Shown one piece after another: positions 4,490-50,912 of a DNA stretch of 64,000 bases (position 1 is its first letter; the number at the start of each line of letters is the position of its first letter). The notes under the pieces were generated by a model. That model was given only the letters and a program-made list of their open reading frames with translations, was not told where the DNA came from and did no database searches. This DNA comes from an uncultured Clostridia bacterium (GTDB lineage Bacteria; Bacillota; Clostridia; Christensenellales; DTU072). The stretch lies in assembly GCA_944363505.1 (NCBI GenBank), contig CALVUD010000003.1, forward strand, positions 69,783-133,782, written 5' to 3'. Both the position numbers and the translations under genes were made by a program.

Positions 4490-7400
4490 ATGCTGAAATT
4501 AATTTACTCCAATACCGTGAACGGCGCCGCGGACGCGGTGCTTGCGGAGCTGAAAAAGGCGTCGGGGCGTTCGATAGTGCTGGTTCCCGATTCGTATACC
4601 CTCGGCGCGGAAAAGCTGGTCATGGAGTATACCGGGCTGAAAGCCACCCTTGACATCGAAGTGACCGGCATAATGAGGCTCGCCACCAAGGAAACGGGTA
4701 AAAGCGTGCTCAGCAAAGAGGGCGCCGTGCTGGTGATGAAGAAAGTCATCAACGCGCACCTAAACGAACTGAGGCATTACGGCAGGGTAGCGCGCGCCGC
4801 GGGGTTCGCGCGCGAGATTTTCGCGGCGATAACCTCCATGCGCATGAACGGCGTTACCCCCGAACGCCTGGAAAAGGCTTCGGAAGAACTGCCCGACGGC
4901 GCCACCAAACGCAAAAACCGCGATCTGATAATCCTGTACCGCGGCTATCTGGAGGCGTTGGAAAGAGACGGCTGGGACGGCACGATGCGCGCGGAGCGTT
5001 TCGCCGCCGAGATCAAAGACAATCCGCGGTTCAGAGGGATAAATGTTTTCGCGTTCGGATTCGATTCGCTTTCGGGGATACAGATAAAGATACTGACCGA
5101 ACTTGCGGCGGCGGGAACGCTGACGGCGGGACTTGTATACGCGCCGAGGGACGCTAACGCGGAGCTGATGCCCGCAGATTCCGTCAGGCGGCTTCTCGCC
5201 GCGGCGTCGGAGAGGGGAGTGGAGATCCGAAAACCCGTCACCGCATACGAAAAGATCGCGGAGCCTTTCGCTTCGATCGCGTCGACGCTCTTTTCGGGCG
5301 CGGACGGTTTTGTCAAGGACCCCGGCGGCGCCGTAACCTTGTTCGGCGAAGCGAATATTTTCGAGGAATTCAACGCCGTCGCGCGCGAGATAACCAGACT
5401 GGTGCGCCGCGAGGGCTACAGATACAAAGACATCGCCGTGGTAGACGCGGAGCCCGAACACGCCAAACAGTTGAAAGAAGTGTTTACCCGCTACGGCGTT
5501 CCGCACTACATAGATCTCAGATACCCGCTCCGCGACACGCTTCCCGCCCGATATATCGAGGCGGCGACGGACGCGGCGTTATTCAACATGCGCCGCGACA
5601 AAGTTTTAAGGTTATTGAAACATCCTTTGTTCGAGTGGGACGAAACCGAAAAATTCGAATTCGAAAACTACGCGCTCGCGACAAACAAGGACTTCGGCGC
5701 GTTCGGCGAACCGTTTACGGGCGAGGGATCAAGGTTCGAACCGCTCCGCTCGGCGCTTGAAAGAGTGATAAAACCTTTTTTGCAAAAGGGCTTGAACGCC
5801 GCCGGTTTCGCGGCGGCGGCAAAAAGACTAATCAGCGGCGAAGCCTACGAAAAAAACGTCAAGCTTTGTTTGGAAGGAGTCGACGAAAATCTGGCGACGT
5901 CTAACGCCAGGGCGGGGGAAAAGGTCGCGGGCTTATTGGACGAATACGTCCGCCTTACGGGAGAGGAGAGCGAAACGCTCGAGGGATTCAGGCAAAGTTT
6001 CGACGCCGCCGTCGCCGCCGAAGAACTGGCGCTGATACCGCGCGCAGCAGACTCCGTGTTCGTGGGCAAACTGAGAACGGGCTTTATATATCGAACACGC
6101 GCGCTATTTATATTGGGCGCGACCCAGAACGCGTTTCCGCCGAAGCACGACTTTTTGTCGATAATATCGGCTTCGGACGCCGCTCGTCTGGAGGAGGCGG
6201 GGGTCAGATTGTACCCCACGCCTTACGACTCCATGCGCGAGGAACAGTTCGCCGTACGCGATCTCATTACCAAAACCGAGAAACTTTATATAGGCTACCC
6301 GATGTCCTCGGCTACGGGCGCGAACAAACCTTCGGGAGTCATACTCGAACTGAAAGAGCGGCTGAATAAACCCGTCGTCAGGCTGTCCGAAAGCTTTTCT
6401 CCCGCGTCCGTAAAAGACATAAAGACCCTGGAAGACTTTACCGTTACCCCCGAAAACGCGGTTTTCGGTTACCTTATGAACAAAGACGCGTTGCCCGAAA
6501 GGGCAAAAGAAGCTATCGAAAGGGCGCTCGGCGACGAGGCGTGGCGACTGAATGCAAACGAAAGCGCCGTTTCGGAGGACGTCCCGATGGCGAATACGCT
6601 CGGCGAAAAAGGGAATTACCGCACGTCCGTAAGCCGCATAGAAACCTTTTATAATTGTCCGTATTCGCACTATCTCAAATACGGTCTTAGACTGAAAGAG
6701 CGCGAGGAGGGCAAGCTGAAGCCTTTGGACGTGGGATTGATCTCTCACCGCGTCATGGAAAGATATTTCGGCAAATTCAAGGGCAGATTCCACGCTACTC
6801 CGCGCGAAACTCTGGACGCGGCGGCAAAACAGATAGCGGCGGAGGAGATCGCCGGCGAAACGCGTTTCAAGAACGCGCGGGCGTATACGGCGGCGTTAAA
6901 AAATCTGGAGAACTCGCTGGTATACGTTACGGGCAGACTGACGGACAATCTGTTGAAGGGCGTATACGAACCTTTCAGGACCGAGCTTGATTTCGGGCAG
7001 GCGGGGACAAAGCCCGTCAGGATAGAAGTTTCTTTCGGGGCGGTGGACATGACCGGGAAAATAGACCGCGTGGACGTAACCGAAAAAGAGGACGCAACCG
7101 ACAAAAGGGTCGCGGTGTTCGATTATAAGACGGGCGCCGCGTGCGGCGCTCCCGCGGAAATATATTTCGGCAAAAAGCTACAGCTCGCAATCTACCTGAA
7201 AGCGGCGGCAAAGACGTATTCGCTGGAGCCGGCCGCGGCGTTCTACGTTCCCGTCCGCGACGGATACACCGCCGCGGGCAAGGATTTTTCGTATAAAGGA
7301 TTCATGCTCGGAGACGCCGTCGCGGTTACGGAATTCGACCGCGGCGTCGCCGCGGGAGAGCCCGGCGCCGCAGGCTTTTTGCCCGTCAAGGTCAAAACCG

Positions 7401-27744: not shown

Positions 27745-27785
27745 GTGCGATAACGTCGCTGTTTTCGGCGATTTCGGCGGATAAA

Positions 27786-27840
27786 AAATTTTTCGACAAA
27801 AATTTCGTTTAAAAATTTATATAAATTGCTTGACAAATTC
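27786..27840. repeat. Phased AAATT(T) repeats upstream of the RHH-clpB promoter
   Basis: AAATTT or AAATT cores are centred near 27788, 27802, 27815, 27825 and 27837, about 10-14 bases apart. The last overlaps the -35 box. Such helically phased A/T tracts can be intrinsic bends, UP elements, or a string of half-sites for a ribbon-helix-helix protein such as the one encoded just downstream. Confidence 0.5.
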
Positions 27841-27858
27841 TCGCTTCGGATATATCTT
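27830..27858 (+). promoter_or_regulatory. Promoter of the RHH-clpB operon
   Basis: Perfect TTGACA (27830-27835), 17-base spacer, TATCTT (27853-27858). A leader of about 25 bases ends in AAGGAGG. No CIRCE element or CtsR heptad repeat was seen, although clpB genes are commonly controlled by these. Confidence 0.7.
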
Positions 27859-27889
27859 ATACTCGAAAAGAAAAGGAGGCGAACGCATC

Positions 27890-28543
27890 ATGAAAAAGAA
27901 CATGTACAGTCTGATGCTTTCGGAGGACGTCATTCGCGCGATCGACGAACTCGCCGCGGAGCAGGGGACGAACAGATCAAATCTGATAAACCAGATACTT
28001 GCCGAACACGTATCGCTCGTTACGCCCGAAAAGCACGTCGGACGGGTCTTCGACATGATATGCTCGCTGATGGACGGGCGCGGGAATTACCGCACTTACG
28101 CCGAGCCGAACAATCTGACGATGTCGATAAAGAGCGTATTGAAGTATCACTACCGTCCCACGATCCGATACGAAGTCGAAATGGCGCGGTCTTCGGACGA
28201 GGCGACGGGCCGGATAAAGATCAATTTCCGCACCACTTCGTCCGAGCTTATGATGGAGCTGACGAAATTTTTCAAACTCTGGATGCGGCTGGAGAGCGTC
28301 TATCTGATCCCCTGTTTCGGGTGTGCTCCCGAATACGCGGTGGAGCCGGGGCGTTTCCGTCGTACTTTCAGGATGTACGGAGACGGTCCGTTCACGGACG
28401 AAGAACTCAGCGACGCCATAGCGGCATACGTCGCGGCGTTCGACGAAATACTGAAAAAATACCTTGCGGGCGAATACGCCTCCGCCGAGGAAATAGAAAA
28501 CGAATATCTGAGGTATCTCAACAGCGGAGTCAGGCTGATATAA
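27890..28543 (+). CDS. Ribbon-helix-helix protein with an unrecognised C-terminal domain
   Basis: A 217-residue protein starting at the ATG with an AAGGAGG site. Residues 4-45 (MYSLMLSEDVIRAIDELAAEQGTNRSNLINQILAEH) match a CopG/MetJ-type ribbon-helix-helix DNA-binding unit: a short strand, then two helices with the conserved G-x-N/S-R-S turn. The remaining 170 residues form a separate mixed alpha/beta domain that I do not recognise. The gene has its own promoter and is followed 21 bases later by clpB, which suggests a regulator, perhaps autoregulatory, of the chaperone. This regulatory role is inference from gene order only. Confidence 0.75.
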   Translation: MKKNMYSLMLSEDVIRAIDELAAEQGTNRSNLINQILAEHVSLVTPEKHVGRVFDMICSLMDGRGNYRTYAEPNNLTMSIKSVLKYHYRPTIRYEVEMARSSDEATGRIKINFRTTSSELMMELTKFFKLWMRLESVYLIPCFGCAPEYAVEPGRFRRTFRMYGDGPFTDEELSDAIAAYVAAFDEILKKYLAGEYASAEEIENEYLRYLNSGVRLI

Positions 28544-28564
28544 CTTACAAGAGGAGGTGAGACC

Positions 28565-31162
28565 ATGAACGCTCAGAAATTTACGAAAAAGGCGCTCGAA
28601 GCACTTAATTCGGCGCAAAGCATAGCCATAGAAAATCAAAACATGCAGATAATGCCGGAGCATCTGTTATACGCTCTGTGCGACCAGGACGGCGGACTGA
28701 TCCCGGGACTTTTGAAGAAAGCGGGCGTCGATACCGACAAACTGATCGCAATGCTGGACGGCGAGATCTCCAAGATGCCCGCCGTCAGCGGATCGGGCAG
28801 GGAACCGGACAAAATCTACGTCGCGCCGCTCACCGACAAGATCCTGACGGACGCGGAGCGGCTTGCCGCCGCCCAGACCGACGAGTACGTTTCCGTGGAG
28901 CACATAATGCTGTCGATATTCGATCACGCCACGGACGGCATCAAATCGGTATTCCGCGCGCTGGGGATAACGAAAGCGGCGTTCACCGCCGAGCTTAAAA
29001 AGGTCAAGACGGACCGCGTAACCAGCGACGAACCCGAAAACGCATACGACGCGCTGTCGAAGTACGGTTTCGACCTCGTTCAGCGCGCGAAAGAACAAAA
29101 ACTCGATCCCGTCATCGGCAGGGATTCCGAGATAAGGAACGTGATCAGGATCCTTTCCAGAAAGACCAAGAACAACCCGGTGCTGATAGGCGAACCGGGC
29201 GTAGGCAAAACGGCGGTCGTGGAAGGGCTTGCCCAAAGGATAGTGCGCGGCGACGTGCCCGAGGGGCTTAAGGACAAGACGATCTTCGCGTTGGACATGG
29301 GCGCGCTGATAGCGGGCGCCAAATTCCGCGGGGAGTTCGAGGAAAGGTTGAAGGCGGTCCTGAACGACATCCGTAAAAGCGAGGGCAAAACGCTGTTGTT
29401 CATCGACGAACTGCATACGATAGTGGGCGCTGGCAAAAGCGACGGCGCCATGGACGCGGGCAACCTTTTAAAGCCGATGCTGGCGAGAGGCGAACTGCAC
29501 TGTATCGGCGCGACCACTTTGGACGAATACAGAAAGTATATAGAAAAAGACGCCGCGCTTGAGCGTCGTTTCCAGCCCGTTACCGTGGACGAACCGAGCG
29601 TCGAGGACACCGTATCCATACTGCGCGGACTGAAGGAAAGATACGAAGTGTATCACGGCGTACAGATCCACGATTCGGCGCTGATAGCGGCGGCGACGCT
29701 GTCGAACAGGTACATTTCCGACCGTTTCCTGCCCGACAAGGCGATAGACCTCGTGGACGAAGCTTCCGCGACGATCCGTACCGAGATCGATTCCATGCCT
29801 CAGGAAATGGACGACATAGCGAGAAGGATAATGCAGCTCGAGATCGAGGAAATGGCTCTGAATAAGGAAACGGACAACCTTTCCAAAGAGAGGCTCGGCG
29901 ATATCCGCAAGGAACTTGCCGAACAAAAGGACGCTTTCAACGAAATGAAAGTGCAATGGGAGCGCGAAAAGGAGAGTATTCATCTTGTCAGCGACCTGAA
30001 AGCGGAGATAGAGAAGAAAAACGGCGAGATCGAGGAAGCGCAGCGCGTGGGCGATTATGCCAAAGCCGCCGAACTCAAGTACAGCAAGCTGCCCGAACTC
30101 CAGAAAAAGCTGGAGGAAGCGGTAAAAGCGGGCGGCAAGAAACATTCGTTGCTTCGCGACACCGTAACCGAAGAGGAAATCGCGAGAGTTGTCTCGCGCT
30201 GGACGGGGATCCCGCTGAACAAGCTTATGGAAGGCGAACGCGAAAAGATACTGCACCTGGACGAAATCCTCCATAAGCGCGTTATAGGTCAGGACGAGGC
30301 GGTTACCAAGGTAACCGAGGCGATAATCCGCTCCCGCGCGGGGATCGCGGACCCGAACCGTCCGATAGGTTCGTTCATGTTCCTGGGTCCCACGGGCGTG
30401 GGCAAGACGGAACTTGCCAAGGCGCTTGCGGAGAGCCTGTTCGACGACGAGCACAACCTCGTCAGGATAGACATGACCGAGTATATGGAAAAATTCTCGG
30501 TATCCCGTCTTATCGGCGCGCCTCCCGGATACGTAGGATACGACGAGGGCGGACAGCTGACCGAGGCGGTGCGCAGAAAGCCGTATTCGGTGGTGCTGTT
30601 CGACGAGATAGAAAAGGCGCATCCGGACGTATTCAACATATTGCTCCAGGTGCTCGACGACGGCAGGATAACCGATTCGCAGGGCAGGACCGTAGACTTC
30701 AAAAACACGATCATTATCCTGACTTCCAACCTCGGTTCGCAGTATCTTATCGACGGCATAACCGCCGACGGCGAGATCTCGGACGAAGCCAAAGAGCAGG
30801 TCGGCGCGCTGCTGAAGGAAAACTTCCGTCCGGAGTTTCTGAACAGACTGGACGAGATAGTGTACTATAAACCGCTGACGCGCGACGACGTGGGCAAGAT
30901 CGCGGAACTGTTGCTGAAAGGACTGTCGAAACGCCTTGCCGAAAAACAGCTCGGGCTTGAGATCACGCCCGCGGCGAAACGGCTGATCGTCGAAAACGGC
31001 TACGATCCCGTCTACGGCGCGCGACCCTTGAAACGCTATCTGCAGAGCCGTATCGAAACGCTGATCGCGCGCACGATAATAGCCGAGGAACTCTCTCAGG
31101 GCGACGTCATCGAAGTGGGCGAGAAAAACGGCGACTTCGTCGTGGAGATAAAACGCAAATAA
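28565..31162 (+). CDS. clpB: ATP-dependent disaggregase ClpB
   Basis: An 865-residue AAA+ chaperone. Domains in order: Clp N-domain (about 1-150), first ATPase with Walker [14 protein letters not shown] (about 208), the long coiled-coil M-domain (about 400-520) that distinguishes ClpB from ClpA/C, and the second ATPase with [13 protein letters not shown] (about 607) and [21 protein letters not shown]. The C-terminal [12 protein letters not shown] sensor-2 region is present. It rescues aggregated proteins together with DnaK. No ClpP-binding tripeptide loop is apparent. It has a strong AGGAGGTGA site and is probably transcribed from the promoter before the RHH gene. Confidence 0.97.
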
Positions 31163-31324: not shown

Positions 31325-32434
31325 ATGGAAAAATTCGACGGGATCAAGAAACGTTTCGGCTTCGGATGTATGCGGCTGCCCACCAGGGCGGGGCTTATGG
31401 ACATCAAGCAGTTCAGCCGTATGACAGACCGGTTTTTAGAGGCCGGCTTCAATTATTTCGATACCGCGCGCGGGTATATGCTCGGCAGGAGCGAGGGCGC
31501 CGTCAGAAAGGCGCTGACTTCGAGGTATCCGAGAGACGCTTTCGTTTTGACGGATAAGTTATCCTCGCATTGCTTCAAAAAGGAATCCGACATTCCGAAA
31601 ATTCTGGAGGCGCAGTTGAAAGACTGCGGCGTGGACTATTTCGATTTTTACCTGATGCACGCTCAGGACAGGAAGCTTTACAAAAAGTACACCGAGCTGA
31701 ACGCCTACGAACAGGCGGCGCGCTTCAAGCGCGAAGGCAAGGTAAAACACGTCGGGCTGTCCTTTCACGACAACGCCGAAATTCTGGACAAAATACTTAC
31801 CGAGCACCCCGAGATCGAGATAGTGCAGATACAGTTCAACTACCTCGATTATTTCGACGAGTCGGTGGAGAGCAAAAAGTGCTATGACGTATGTATGAAG
31901 CACGACAAGCCCGTAATAGTCATGGAACCCGTAAAAGGCGGGCTGTTGGCAAAACTTCCCGAAGACGCCGCCGAAGTTTTCGCCGCGCTCGGCGACGCCT
32001 CTCCCGCAAGTTACGCGCTGCGATTCGCGGCGGGCTTCGAAGGCGTCAGAATGATTTTAAGCGGTATGTCGGACGAAAAAATGCTCGAGGAAAACATAGG
32101 GACAATGTCCGATCCGAAGCCGCTTTCGGCCGGGGAAGCCGAAGCCGTGGCGCGGGTCGGGGAAATACTTCGGGGAAAGGGCGATATCGCGTGTACGGCG
32201 TGCCGCTACTGTCTGGAGGGTTGTCCCAAGCATATCCCGATCCCCGATCTGTTTGCGTGTCTGAACGCAAAAAGGTCGCTCGGCGACAAAGGCGCGGATT
32301 GTTACTATGCCATACACACCGCCGAGGGCGGCAGGGCGAAAGAGTGTTTGGGTTGCGGCGCTTGCGAGAAAGTCTGTCCCCAGCACCTTGAAATCAGAAA
32401 ACTGTTAAAGGAAGTTTCCAAAGCCTTCGATTAA
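31325..32434 (+). CDS. Aldo/keto reductase with C-terminal 4Fe-4S sites
   Basis: A 369-residue protein. Residues 1-260 are an aldo/keto reductase barrel: FGFGCMRLP, NYFDTARGY (catalytic Asp/Tyr region), LMHAQD and KVKHVGLSFHD. The C-terminal 110 residues carry CTACRYCLEGCPKHIPIP and CLGCGACEKVCPQHLEIR, two CxxCxxCxxxCP cluster motifs. This fused architecture is widespread in anaerobes. It probably uses ferredoxin-type electrons along with or instead of NADPH, but the physiological substrate is unknown. It converges with a ferredoxin gene and shares its terminator. Confidence 0.9.
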   Translation: MEKFDGIKKRFGFGCMRLPTRAGLMDIKQFSRMTDRFLEAGFNYFDTARGYMLGRSEGAVRKALTSRYPRDAFVLTDKLSSHCFKKESDIPKILEAQLKDCGVDYFDFYLMHAQDRKLYKKYTELNAYEQAARFKREGKVKHVGLSFHDNAEILDKILTEHPEIEIVQIQFNYLDYFDESVESKKCYDVCMKHDKPVIVMEPVKGGLLAKLPEDAAEVFAALGDASPASYALRFAAGFEGVRMILSGMSDEKMLEENIGTMSDPKPLSAGEAEAVARVGEILRGKGDIACTACRYCLEGCPKHIPIPDLFACLNAKRSLGDKGADCYYAIHTAEGGRAKECLGCGACEKVCPQHLEIRKLLKEVSKAFD

Positions 32435-49144: not shown

Positions 49145-50912
49145 ACCGTACAAAGGCTTCCGCCCGCCGTGGATAGAAGAAAGGGCGCCCGAGGGTTCTT
49201 ACCGCGAAATTTTCAAATGGGGGCATCATACGGAAACCAAAGTGCCCAAGGAATCTCTTTACAAGATGATGAAAGAGATATTCAAAATGACGGACGACGA
49301 TTTCCGCGAGCCCAAGGAAACGGGATACGACAAAGTCGGTTTCGACGTGCCCGTCAAGCTTTCGGAGGAGGTCATTGCCGATCTGAAAGCGATAGCGGGC
49401 GATAAGAACGTGCGTACCGACGATTACGCGCGCTTGTCGGTGGCTTACGGCAAGACGATGCACGACCTTATGCGTCTCAGGAAAAAGGTCATAGAAAACA
49501 TTCCCGACGTCGTCGTGTATCCCGAAAACAAGGAACAGATCGAAAAAATAGTCGCATACGTTTCCGAACACAAGATACCGCTGTACGTTTACGGCGGCGG
49601 TTCCTCGGTTACGAGGGGCGTCGAGTGCGTCAAAGGCGGCGTTTCGCTGGATATGCGCCTGAATTTCAACAAAGTCATCGCGTTCAACGAGGTCAATCAG
49701 ACCATAACCGTGGAAGCGGGCATGTCGGGACCTCAGCTCGAGGAGCACCTGAACAACGCCGTCAAGGAGTTCGGCGCGAAACGCGCGTACACCTGCGGAC
49801 ATTTCCCGCAGTCGTTCGAATATTCGTCGGTGGGCGGCTGGACGGTGACCAGGGGCGCGGGGCAGAATTCCACTTATTACGGAAAAATCGAGCACATAGT
49901 CCTCGGACAGGAATACGCAACGCCCGTCGGCGTGATAAAGACGGACGATTACGCCGCAAAGGCGTGCGGACCCGACATCAATCAGATAATGATGGGTTCG
50001 GAGGGCGCCTTCGGCGTGTTGACCCACGTAACGCTCAGATTTTTCAGGTATATGCCGCAAAACCGCATAAAGTTCAGCTATCTGTTCAAGAGCTGGGCTG
50101 ACGCCCAGGCGGCGGCGAGGGAGATAATGCAGGGCGAATTCGGCATGCCCAGCGTATTCCGTCTGTCCGATCCCGAGGAAACCGAACTGATGCTGCGCCT
50201 TTACGGCGTGGACGAGATACCCGGCGCGCTGAAACTGTTCAACGCCCTGGGATACCCCCAGTTCGACATCAACAAGTCGCTGGAAGGCGAGATCAACGGC
50301 GAGGGCAAATGCCTGTTCCTCGGCTGGTCGGAGGGCGAGAGAGGTTTTGCCAGGAATCAGGCGAAACAGGTCAAAAAGATATGCCACGCTTACGGCGCGC
50401 TGGGACTGGGCTCTTTCCCCGTCAAGGGCTGGGAAAAGGGCAGGTTCAAAGACCCGTATCTCAGGGATTCGATGCAGGACTTCGGCATAATGACGGACAC
50501 TCTGGAGTGCACGGTCAACTGGGACAACATGGATTACGTCCATAAATTCGTCCGCGCGTATTGCAAATCGCGCCCGAACACGATATGCACCACGCACATG
50601 TCGCACGCCTACCCGCAGGGCGCGAACCTATATTTCATTTTTATAACAAAGATGAGCGAACTGGACGATTACCTGCAGTATCACCGCGGCATACTCGACC
50701 ATATCCAGGAGTCGGGCGCCGCGATCTCTCACCACCACGGTATCGGCAAGATGTTTGCCCCGTGGCTGGAAGGCTTCCTTGGAGGCAACCAAATGGATAT
50801 TTTAAGGTGCCTGAAACAGCATTTCGACCCCGACGACGTTATGAATCCCGGCGGCACGATAGCGGTGGATCTCGACGAGGACAAAAAGGTATTCAAGCGT
50901 CCGCGCTGGTAA
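49137..50912 (+). CDS. FAD-binding oxidase resembling alkyl-dihydroxyacetone-phosphate synthase
   Basis: A 591-residue VAO-family flavoenzyme overlapping the kinase gene by 8 bases (site AAAGGAG). The FAD_binding_4 domain runs from about 122 (PDVVVYPENKEQIEKIVAYV) with PP-loop YGGGSSVTRGVE and the CGHFPQSFEYSSVGGW stretch. Near the C-terminus SHHHGIGKMFAPWLEG contains the HHH triad and following G-x-G-K that mark alkyl-DHAP synthases; glycolate and D-lactate oxidases normally have a single His here. The N-terminal KWGHH also recalls AGPS. AGPS exchanges an acyl for an alkyl chain on DHAP without net redox. Whether this enzyme makes or breaks ether bonds is open. Confidence 0.82.
   Translation: MSKPYKGFRPPWIEERAPEGSYREIFKWGHHTETKVPKESLYKMMKEIFKMTDDDFREPKETGYDKVGFDVPVKLSEEVIADLKAIAGDKNVRTDDYARLSVAYGKTMHDLMRLRKKVIENIPDVVVYPENKEQIEKIVAYVSEHKIPLYVYGGGSSVTRGVECVKGGVSLDMRLNFNKVIAFNEVNQTITVEAGMSGPQLEEHLNNAVKEFGAKRAYTCGHFPQSFEYSSVGGWTVTRGAGQNSTYYGKIEHIVLGQEYATPVGVIKTDDYAAKACGPDINQIMMGSEGAFGVLTHVTLRFFRYMPQNRIKFSYLFKSWADAQAAAREIMQGEFGMPSVFRLSDPEETELMLRLYGVDEIPGALKLFNALGYPQFDINKSLEGEINGEGKCLFLGWSEGERGFARNQAKQVKKICHAYGALGLGSFPVKGWEKGRFKDPYLRDSMQDFGIMTDTLECTVNWDNMDYVHKFVRAYCKSRPNTICTTHMSHAYPQGANLYFIFITKMSELDDYLQYHRGILDHIQESGAAISHHHGIGKMFAPWLEGFLGGNQMDILRCLKQHFDPDDVMNPGGTIAVDLDEDKKVFKRPRW

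Follow-up and report, generated by a model that had tools for sequence, protein, structure and literature searches.

The window, a stretch of 64,000 nucleotides from an uncultured Clostridia bacterium (Christensenellales; DTU072; assembly GCA_944363505.1, contig CALVUD010000003.1, positions 69,783–133,782, forward strand), belongs to a genome of 1.87 Mb in 12 contigs and carries a two-gene operon on its forward strand, each gene being present in that genome as a single copy. The first gene (27890–28543, ATG at 27890 and stop codon at 28541–28543) is preceded by the Shine-Dalgarno sequence AAAGGAGG at 27872–27879 and encodes a 217-residue regulator of the CopG-type ribbon-helix-helix (RHH) class. 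The second, clpB (28565–31162), encodes a disaggregase, which is matched over its full length by the ClpB equivalog TIGR03346 of NCBIfam (1327 bits, cut-off 1232). The gap of 21 bp between them has space for the clpB ribosome-binding site only, and the preliminary description was right to place the RHH gene directly 5′ of clpB in one operon. Directly 3′ of the operon, at 31325–32431, lies a gene for an aldo/keto reductase with a C-terminal ferredoxin-type 4Fe-4S domain, which is not a conserved neighbour.

By sequence match the RHH protein is a member of the RHH_1/CopG superfamily: the Pfam profile RHH_1 (PF01402) covers residues 10–41 (E 2.7e-5, 24.4 bits against a cut-off of 20.5) and is found in 47 of 49 relatives of the protein (E≤0.1). 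The CopG structures 1b01/1ea4 are matched weakly in a profile search (E 0.021), PHROGs returns weak CopG-type matches and PADLOC no match. Conservation peaks in residues 1–10, where eight of ten positions are invariant in an alignment of 49 sequences that omits one locus with an in-frame stop (L055). The AlphaFold2 model of the whole protein as a monomer has a pLDDT of 85, with residues 1–8 below 50.

The rest of the protein, from about residue 44 to residue 217 (28019–28540, forward strand), forms a C-terminal domain that is proposed as the sensor. The domain is conserved among relatives and is predicted by AlphaFold2 to run in the order helix, four strands, helix, two strands, two helices; modelled alone, it reaches a mean pLDDT of 90 and a pTM of 0.89. 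It had been called unrecognised, at 170 residues, and no significant Pfam match contradicts this, the best (STK_08120-like, E 0.049) lying below the cut-off; that identity was dropped, as the weak match occurs in one of 49 relatives. Structural searches of two AlphaFold2 models with Foldseek and VIA-align 2 give no confident match either. The best Foldseek match is ribosome recycling factor (E 0.028, TM-score 0.2), and InvB, DR_1245, YbjN, CapZ and Atg10 all score Z 5–8, the background level stated for the tool. A type III secretion chaperone/YbjN-like fold would be tempting for a sensor of unfolded protein; since its Z values are those of an actin-capping protein and Atg10, no fold is claimed for the domain.

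The aligned upstream regions of relatives contain a conserved interrupted palindrome before the RHH gene (rhh), AAATTTGT-N7-TTTATATAAA-N7-ACAAATTT, which we infer from its conservation to be an operator. In the window the putative operator spans 27800–27841 on the forward strand, with the left arm AAATTTCGT at 27800–27808, the core TTTATATAAA at 27816–27825 and the right arm ACAAATTCT at 27833–27841, and it is the sole match in the source genome at ≤3 mismatches. Among 73 distinct upstream sequences the left-arm G is conserved in 97% and the mirrored right-arm C in 100%, the core is nearly invariant, and the complementarity of mirrored positions is highest about the core centre (0.68, compared with ≤0.45 for the other centres tested); identical operator sequences are counted once here, and the profile omits three loci (L041, L066 and L068) in which the core is cut off, shifted or displaced. 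The assignment as an operator is well supported by this pattern. In L068 an intact operator lies ∼350 bp further upstream of rhh, the intervening stretch (∼4649–5000) looking like an insertion, and the same ∼350-bp gap between operator and RHH gene is seen in L147. The operator may be in tandem at four other loci (L054, L067, L072 and L080), where another TTTATATAAA-like core precedes the usual one by ∼20 bases.

The right arm overlaps the −35 box TTGACA (27830–27835, forward strand), which stands 4 bp past the operator core in nearly all relatives. A probable −10 box, TATCTT, follows after a 17-bp spacer (27853–27858, forward strand) in the columns where relatives have TATAAT, and is tentative because it has four of the six consensus bases; most relatives have near-consensus −35 and −10 boxes before rhh. 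TTGACA is extended by AATTT at 38 of 45 rhh promoters, compared with 2 of 27 other promoter-like sites at the same loci. An array of AAATT cores had been noticed in this region, and its number and spacing stand: five cores lie at 27786, 27800, 27813, 27823 and 27835, at spacings of 14, 13, 10 and 12. No second place in the window reaches this count, and among 5000 dinucleotide-shuffled versions of the 65-base segment 35 do. The first core (27786) does not belong with the others, being outside the conserved element; the remaining four, from 27800 onward, sit on the palindrome.

The preliminary description had named a lack of conservation of the gene pair as a point against it, and the opposite is seen: the pair is kept wherever enough sequence is available. 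Among 80 loci, 20 from 40 family genomes (the RHH protein being present in 20 of the 40) and 60 from a scan of the genome collection, clpB lies directly 3′ of the RHH gene in 78, and the two exceptions (L020 and L053) stop at a contig edge. The same holds for 57 of 59 further rows, a set that partly overlaps the first, where again both exceptions (L176 and L178) stop at a contig edge; the adjacency check covered 43 of the 46 RHH-positive genomes of the order that lie outside the family (all but G477, G496 and G528). The flanking glf and aldo/keto reductase genes are conserved in none of the 32 loci with full flanks. In the family genomes (n=38) clpB is present in all 19 that have the RHH gene and absent from 15 of the 19 that do not. 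The linkage to clpB is thus well supported across these sequences. The distribution of the protein is patchy, with occurrences in 63 of 396 order genomes and in 4 of 398 from a phylum-wide sample; relatives in the collection include Candidatus Borkfalkia, Candidatus Limadaptatus and uncultured Clostridia.

The phage and plasmid collections yield one RHH record each. Subdoligranulum variabile OY725857.1 encodes an RHH protein of 36% identity, and a phage-labelled fragment of 4.4 kb encodes one of 43% identity; in both, clpB comes next and rhh is preceded by the operator, and as both lie outside every model they serve as an independent check. The phage-labelled record MT839315.1 (L394; Bacteriophage sp.), which contains rhh together with the beginning of clpB, probably stems from a bacterium. 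One genome (G527; L173 and L174) has two RHH genes, each with its own clpB, and another (G601; L175 and L176) has two at contig ends, which may be one locus assembled twice.

The putative operator also follows the RHH gene from genome to genome. A sequence-only search model of 57 operators, from an alignment that omits L041, L066, L068 and, on the same grounds, L079, gives matches at the E≤1e-3 level for 18 of 19 RHH-positive and 0 of 19 RHH-negative family genomes (n=38); its sensitivity within the family is partly built in, because family operators resemble the training set, whereas the absence from RHH-negative genomes is not. A wider scan covered 80 genomes, namely all 50 further RHH-positive genomes and 30 of the RHH-negative genomes of the order. 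Here 17 of 50 against 0 of 30 have sites at E≤1e-5, and 27 of 50 against 3 of 30 at E≤1e-3, a less clean separation than in the family, with 13 of the 50 RHH-positive genomes giving no match at E≤0.02. Several of the RHH-positive lineages without a match have, judged by eye, a changed core in the same place, for example TTATTAATAA, and in most such lineages residue 5 of the RHH protein is isoleucine, again by eye, in a comparison of loci other than L235 and L236. Residue 5 lies on a strand which we take, from alignment with CopG, to face the DNA. The association of isoleucine with a changed core is only suggestive, because these lineages are related.

In some relatives the same operator is found at other chaperone promoters. 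The 16 sites in RHH-positive genomes at E≤0.01 that are not at the rhh promoter itself include nine before hsp20 (three), htpG (two, in two genomes), hrcA (three) and groESL (one, in one genome); the other seven have no chaperone or hrcA gene downstream. Pfam confirms the identity of ten proteins encoded behind these sites. RHH-negative genomes have 14 sites at this threshold, and among the six examined one precedes a chaperone gene or hrcA (hrcA in G469); that match is weak, its full-length score being 12.6, and it was set aside. The six comprise 4 of the 11 RHH-negative sites of the 80-genome scan and those of the family scan outside G021.

Scoring of promoters genome by genome covers hrcA and hsp20. 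Full scores of at least 20 are reached at 6 of 68 hrcA promoters in RHH-positive genomes and 0 of 44 in RHH-negative ones, and grpE and dnaK lie downstream of hrcA in both operons read further. A rank test of the hrcA promoter scores finds no overall shift between the two groups (p 0.66), and hrcA was dropped as a general target, the six RHH-positive promoters alone standing out. Among hsp20 promoters, 3 of 9 in RHH-positive genomes score ∼40 and none of 14 in RHH-negative genomes does, the best there scoring 3.2. The Fisher p values of 0.08 (hrcA) and 0.05 (hsp20) are unadjusted for kinship, and neither 2×2 table is strong alone; hrcA and hsp20 are targets in a minority of RHH-positive genomes. 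Each of the three hsp20 sites has a CIRCE beside it, as do two of those before hrcA. At these promoters the operator overlaps the core promoter, throughout at clpB and in some relatives at hsp20, htpG, hrcA and groESL, and its place before the latter four gives a tie to heat shock that is independent of clpB. The gene pair, the operator, its co-occurrence with the RHH gene and this extended set of promoters are all read from the sequences themselves.

As had been stated before, the operon has neither a CIRCE nor a CtsR site: the window contains no CIRCE at ≤4 mismatches, and the single match to a CtsR-like site, at 50359, is distant from the operon. CtsR, which represses clp genes of Gram-positive bacteria (PMC3472708), is unrelated to the RHH system in both protein and operator, and its profile (PF05848) is missing from all 38 family genomes searched. 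HrcA is likewise a heat-shock repressor of chaperone promoters with an unrelated protein and operator, and is found too, in 34 of the 38. None of 136 RHH-clpB promoters has a CIRCE at ≤4 mismatches. Among relatives without the RHH gene, two (G006, L099; G009, L183) have a CIRCE directly before clpB, and in a third (G005) neither CIRCE nor operator is seen there; in G001 the available sequence does not reach the start of clpB. The RHH protein therefore seems to replace HrcA at clpB, and within one genus the two seem able to stand in for each other in regulating clpB.

Pfam finds no HrcA, CtsR or MerR domain in the RHH protein. HspR resembles it as a repressor of chaperone genes with clpB among its targets, which in Streptomyces are clpB and the dnaK operon, hspR itself lying inside the latter. 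HspR differs in having a MerR fold and another operator (HAIR), whereas here the fold is RHH and the partner gene clpB. The repressors CopG, Arc, MetJ and NikR share the RHH domain, short repeats near the −35 box and autoregulation, and in NikR the RHH domain is joined to a C-terminal sensor; the present protein differs in that its C-terminal domain has no significant match in Pfam and its target is a chaperone operon. PMC7464140 names HrcA, HspR and CtsR as prominent heat-shock repressors, and describes HspR and HrcA of Campylobacter as sharing promoters and binding cooperatively. Titles and abstract openings in the literature searched describe no RHH regulator of clpB or chaperone genes, which is no proof of novelty because most subscription papers lie outside that scope; PMC3933415 and PMC2965109 contain both terms, but in separate places.

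It is very probable that the RHH protein controls the rhh-clpB operon through the palindromic element. The element is AT-rich and abuts the −35 box, and as the search model includes TTGACA, strong promoters score partly through promoter strength; together with the three RHH-negative genomes that have matches at E≤1e-3, this would fit a strong promoter (UP element plus −35 box) or the site of another factor, unbound by the RHH protein. Such a reading is very unlikely, given that the symmetry of the element extends from its palindromic core to either side, that its right-arm extension is rare at other promoter-like sites (2 of 27), that RHH-negative hsp20 promoters are without it (0 of 14) while most retain TTGACA and CIRCE, and that lineages with a changed core tend, by eye, to isoleucine on the strand predicted to face the DNA. 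Weak NCBIfam matches to MazE, BrnA and VapB, all far below cut-off, might suggest an antitoxin-like gene that stands beside clpB by chance. This can hardly be the case and is already contradicted by the strict linkage, the partner being clpB and no toxin gene wherever enough sequence is available; the C-terminal domain is moreover conserved and confidently predicted to fold.

If the protein does act at this site, the sign and the cue of its action have to be considered. Some RHH proteins activate, and here the left arm and core are placed 5′ of the −35 box, both points in favour of an activator of clpB; the right arm, however, covers the −35 box, and no activator is needed where the −35 and −10 boxes are near-consensus, as in most relatives, which makes activation quite improbable. 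Autoregulation of the operon through the operator in answer to a metabolite, bile or redox cue at the C-terminal domain, rather than heat, would agree with the lack of a recognised fold in that domain and with the source genome, where the only site is at clpB and the hsp20 and hrcA promoters carry CIRCE. It is an unlikely alternative when set against the relatives, in which the operator precedes hsp20, htpG, hrcA-grpE-dnaK and groESL, genes whose common theme is proteotoxic stress.

In many gut Clostridia this small DNA-binding protein is encoded immediately ahead of clpB; its gene travels with clpB and with a conserved site that in some relatives is also found before other heat-shock genes, and the system is therefore probably an undescribed heat-shock switch, the protein being a likely autoregulatory heat-shock repressor of the rhh-clpB operon from an undescribed family. 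The proposal that it might regulate clpB in heat shock thus gains support from the conserved pair, from the operator that tracks the RHH gene and from the sites at chaperone promoters. We infer that RHH dimers, as oligomers, would bind the AAATTTGT-N7-TTTATATAAA-N7-ACAAATTT element over the −35 box and exclude RNA polymerase, repressing rather than activating. Under protein-damaging stress the C-terminal domain would release the DNA or be titrated, the simplest cause being that ClpB or unfolded protein binds to it, and clpB and its regulator would then be made until ClpB catches up. Titration loops have been proposed for HspR with DnaK and for HrcA with GroEL. A corresponding loop through ClpB is the simplest idea because the partner is always ClpB, and feedback from ClpB or unfolded protein is a possible, still tentative, account of the input. 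In the source genome the RHH protein would govern clpB alone; in some relatives it may also control hsp20, htpG, hrcA-grpE-dnaK or groESL, often on CIRCE-bearing promoters.

Clostridia without CtsR need some control of clpB, and the literature searched offers no regulator for these lineages. Beside HrcA, CtsR and HspR there may be a further repressor architecture, in which an RHH protein encoded with ClpB reads protein damage directly, as unfolded protein or ClpB, through its C-terminal domain, and in which hsp20, htpG, dnaK-operon and groESL promoters have repeatedly gained its operator next to CIRCE, with one to several targets depending on the lineage. A repressor that travels with ClpB and has a defined 40-bp operator makes clpB control directly testable, and the operator is a sequence marker for predicting heat-shock genes in many uncultured gut bacteria. 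If the model is true, it is the demand for disaggregase, not that for DnaK or GroEL, that would be wired into transcription in these organisms.
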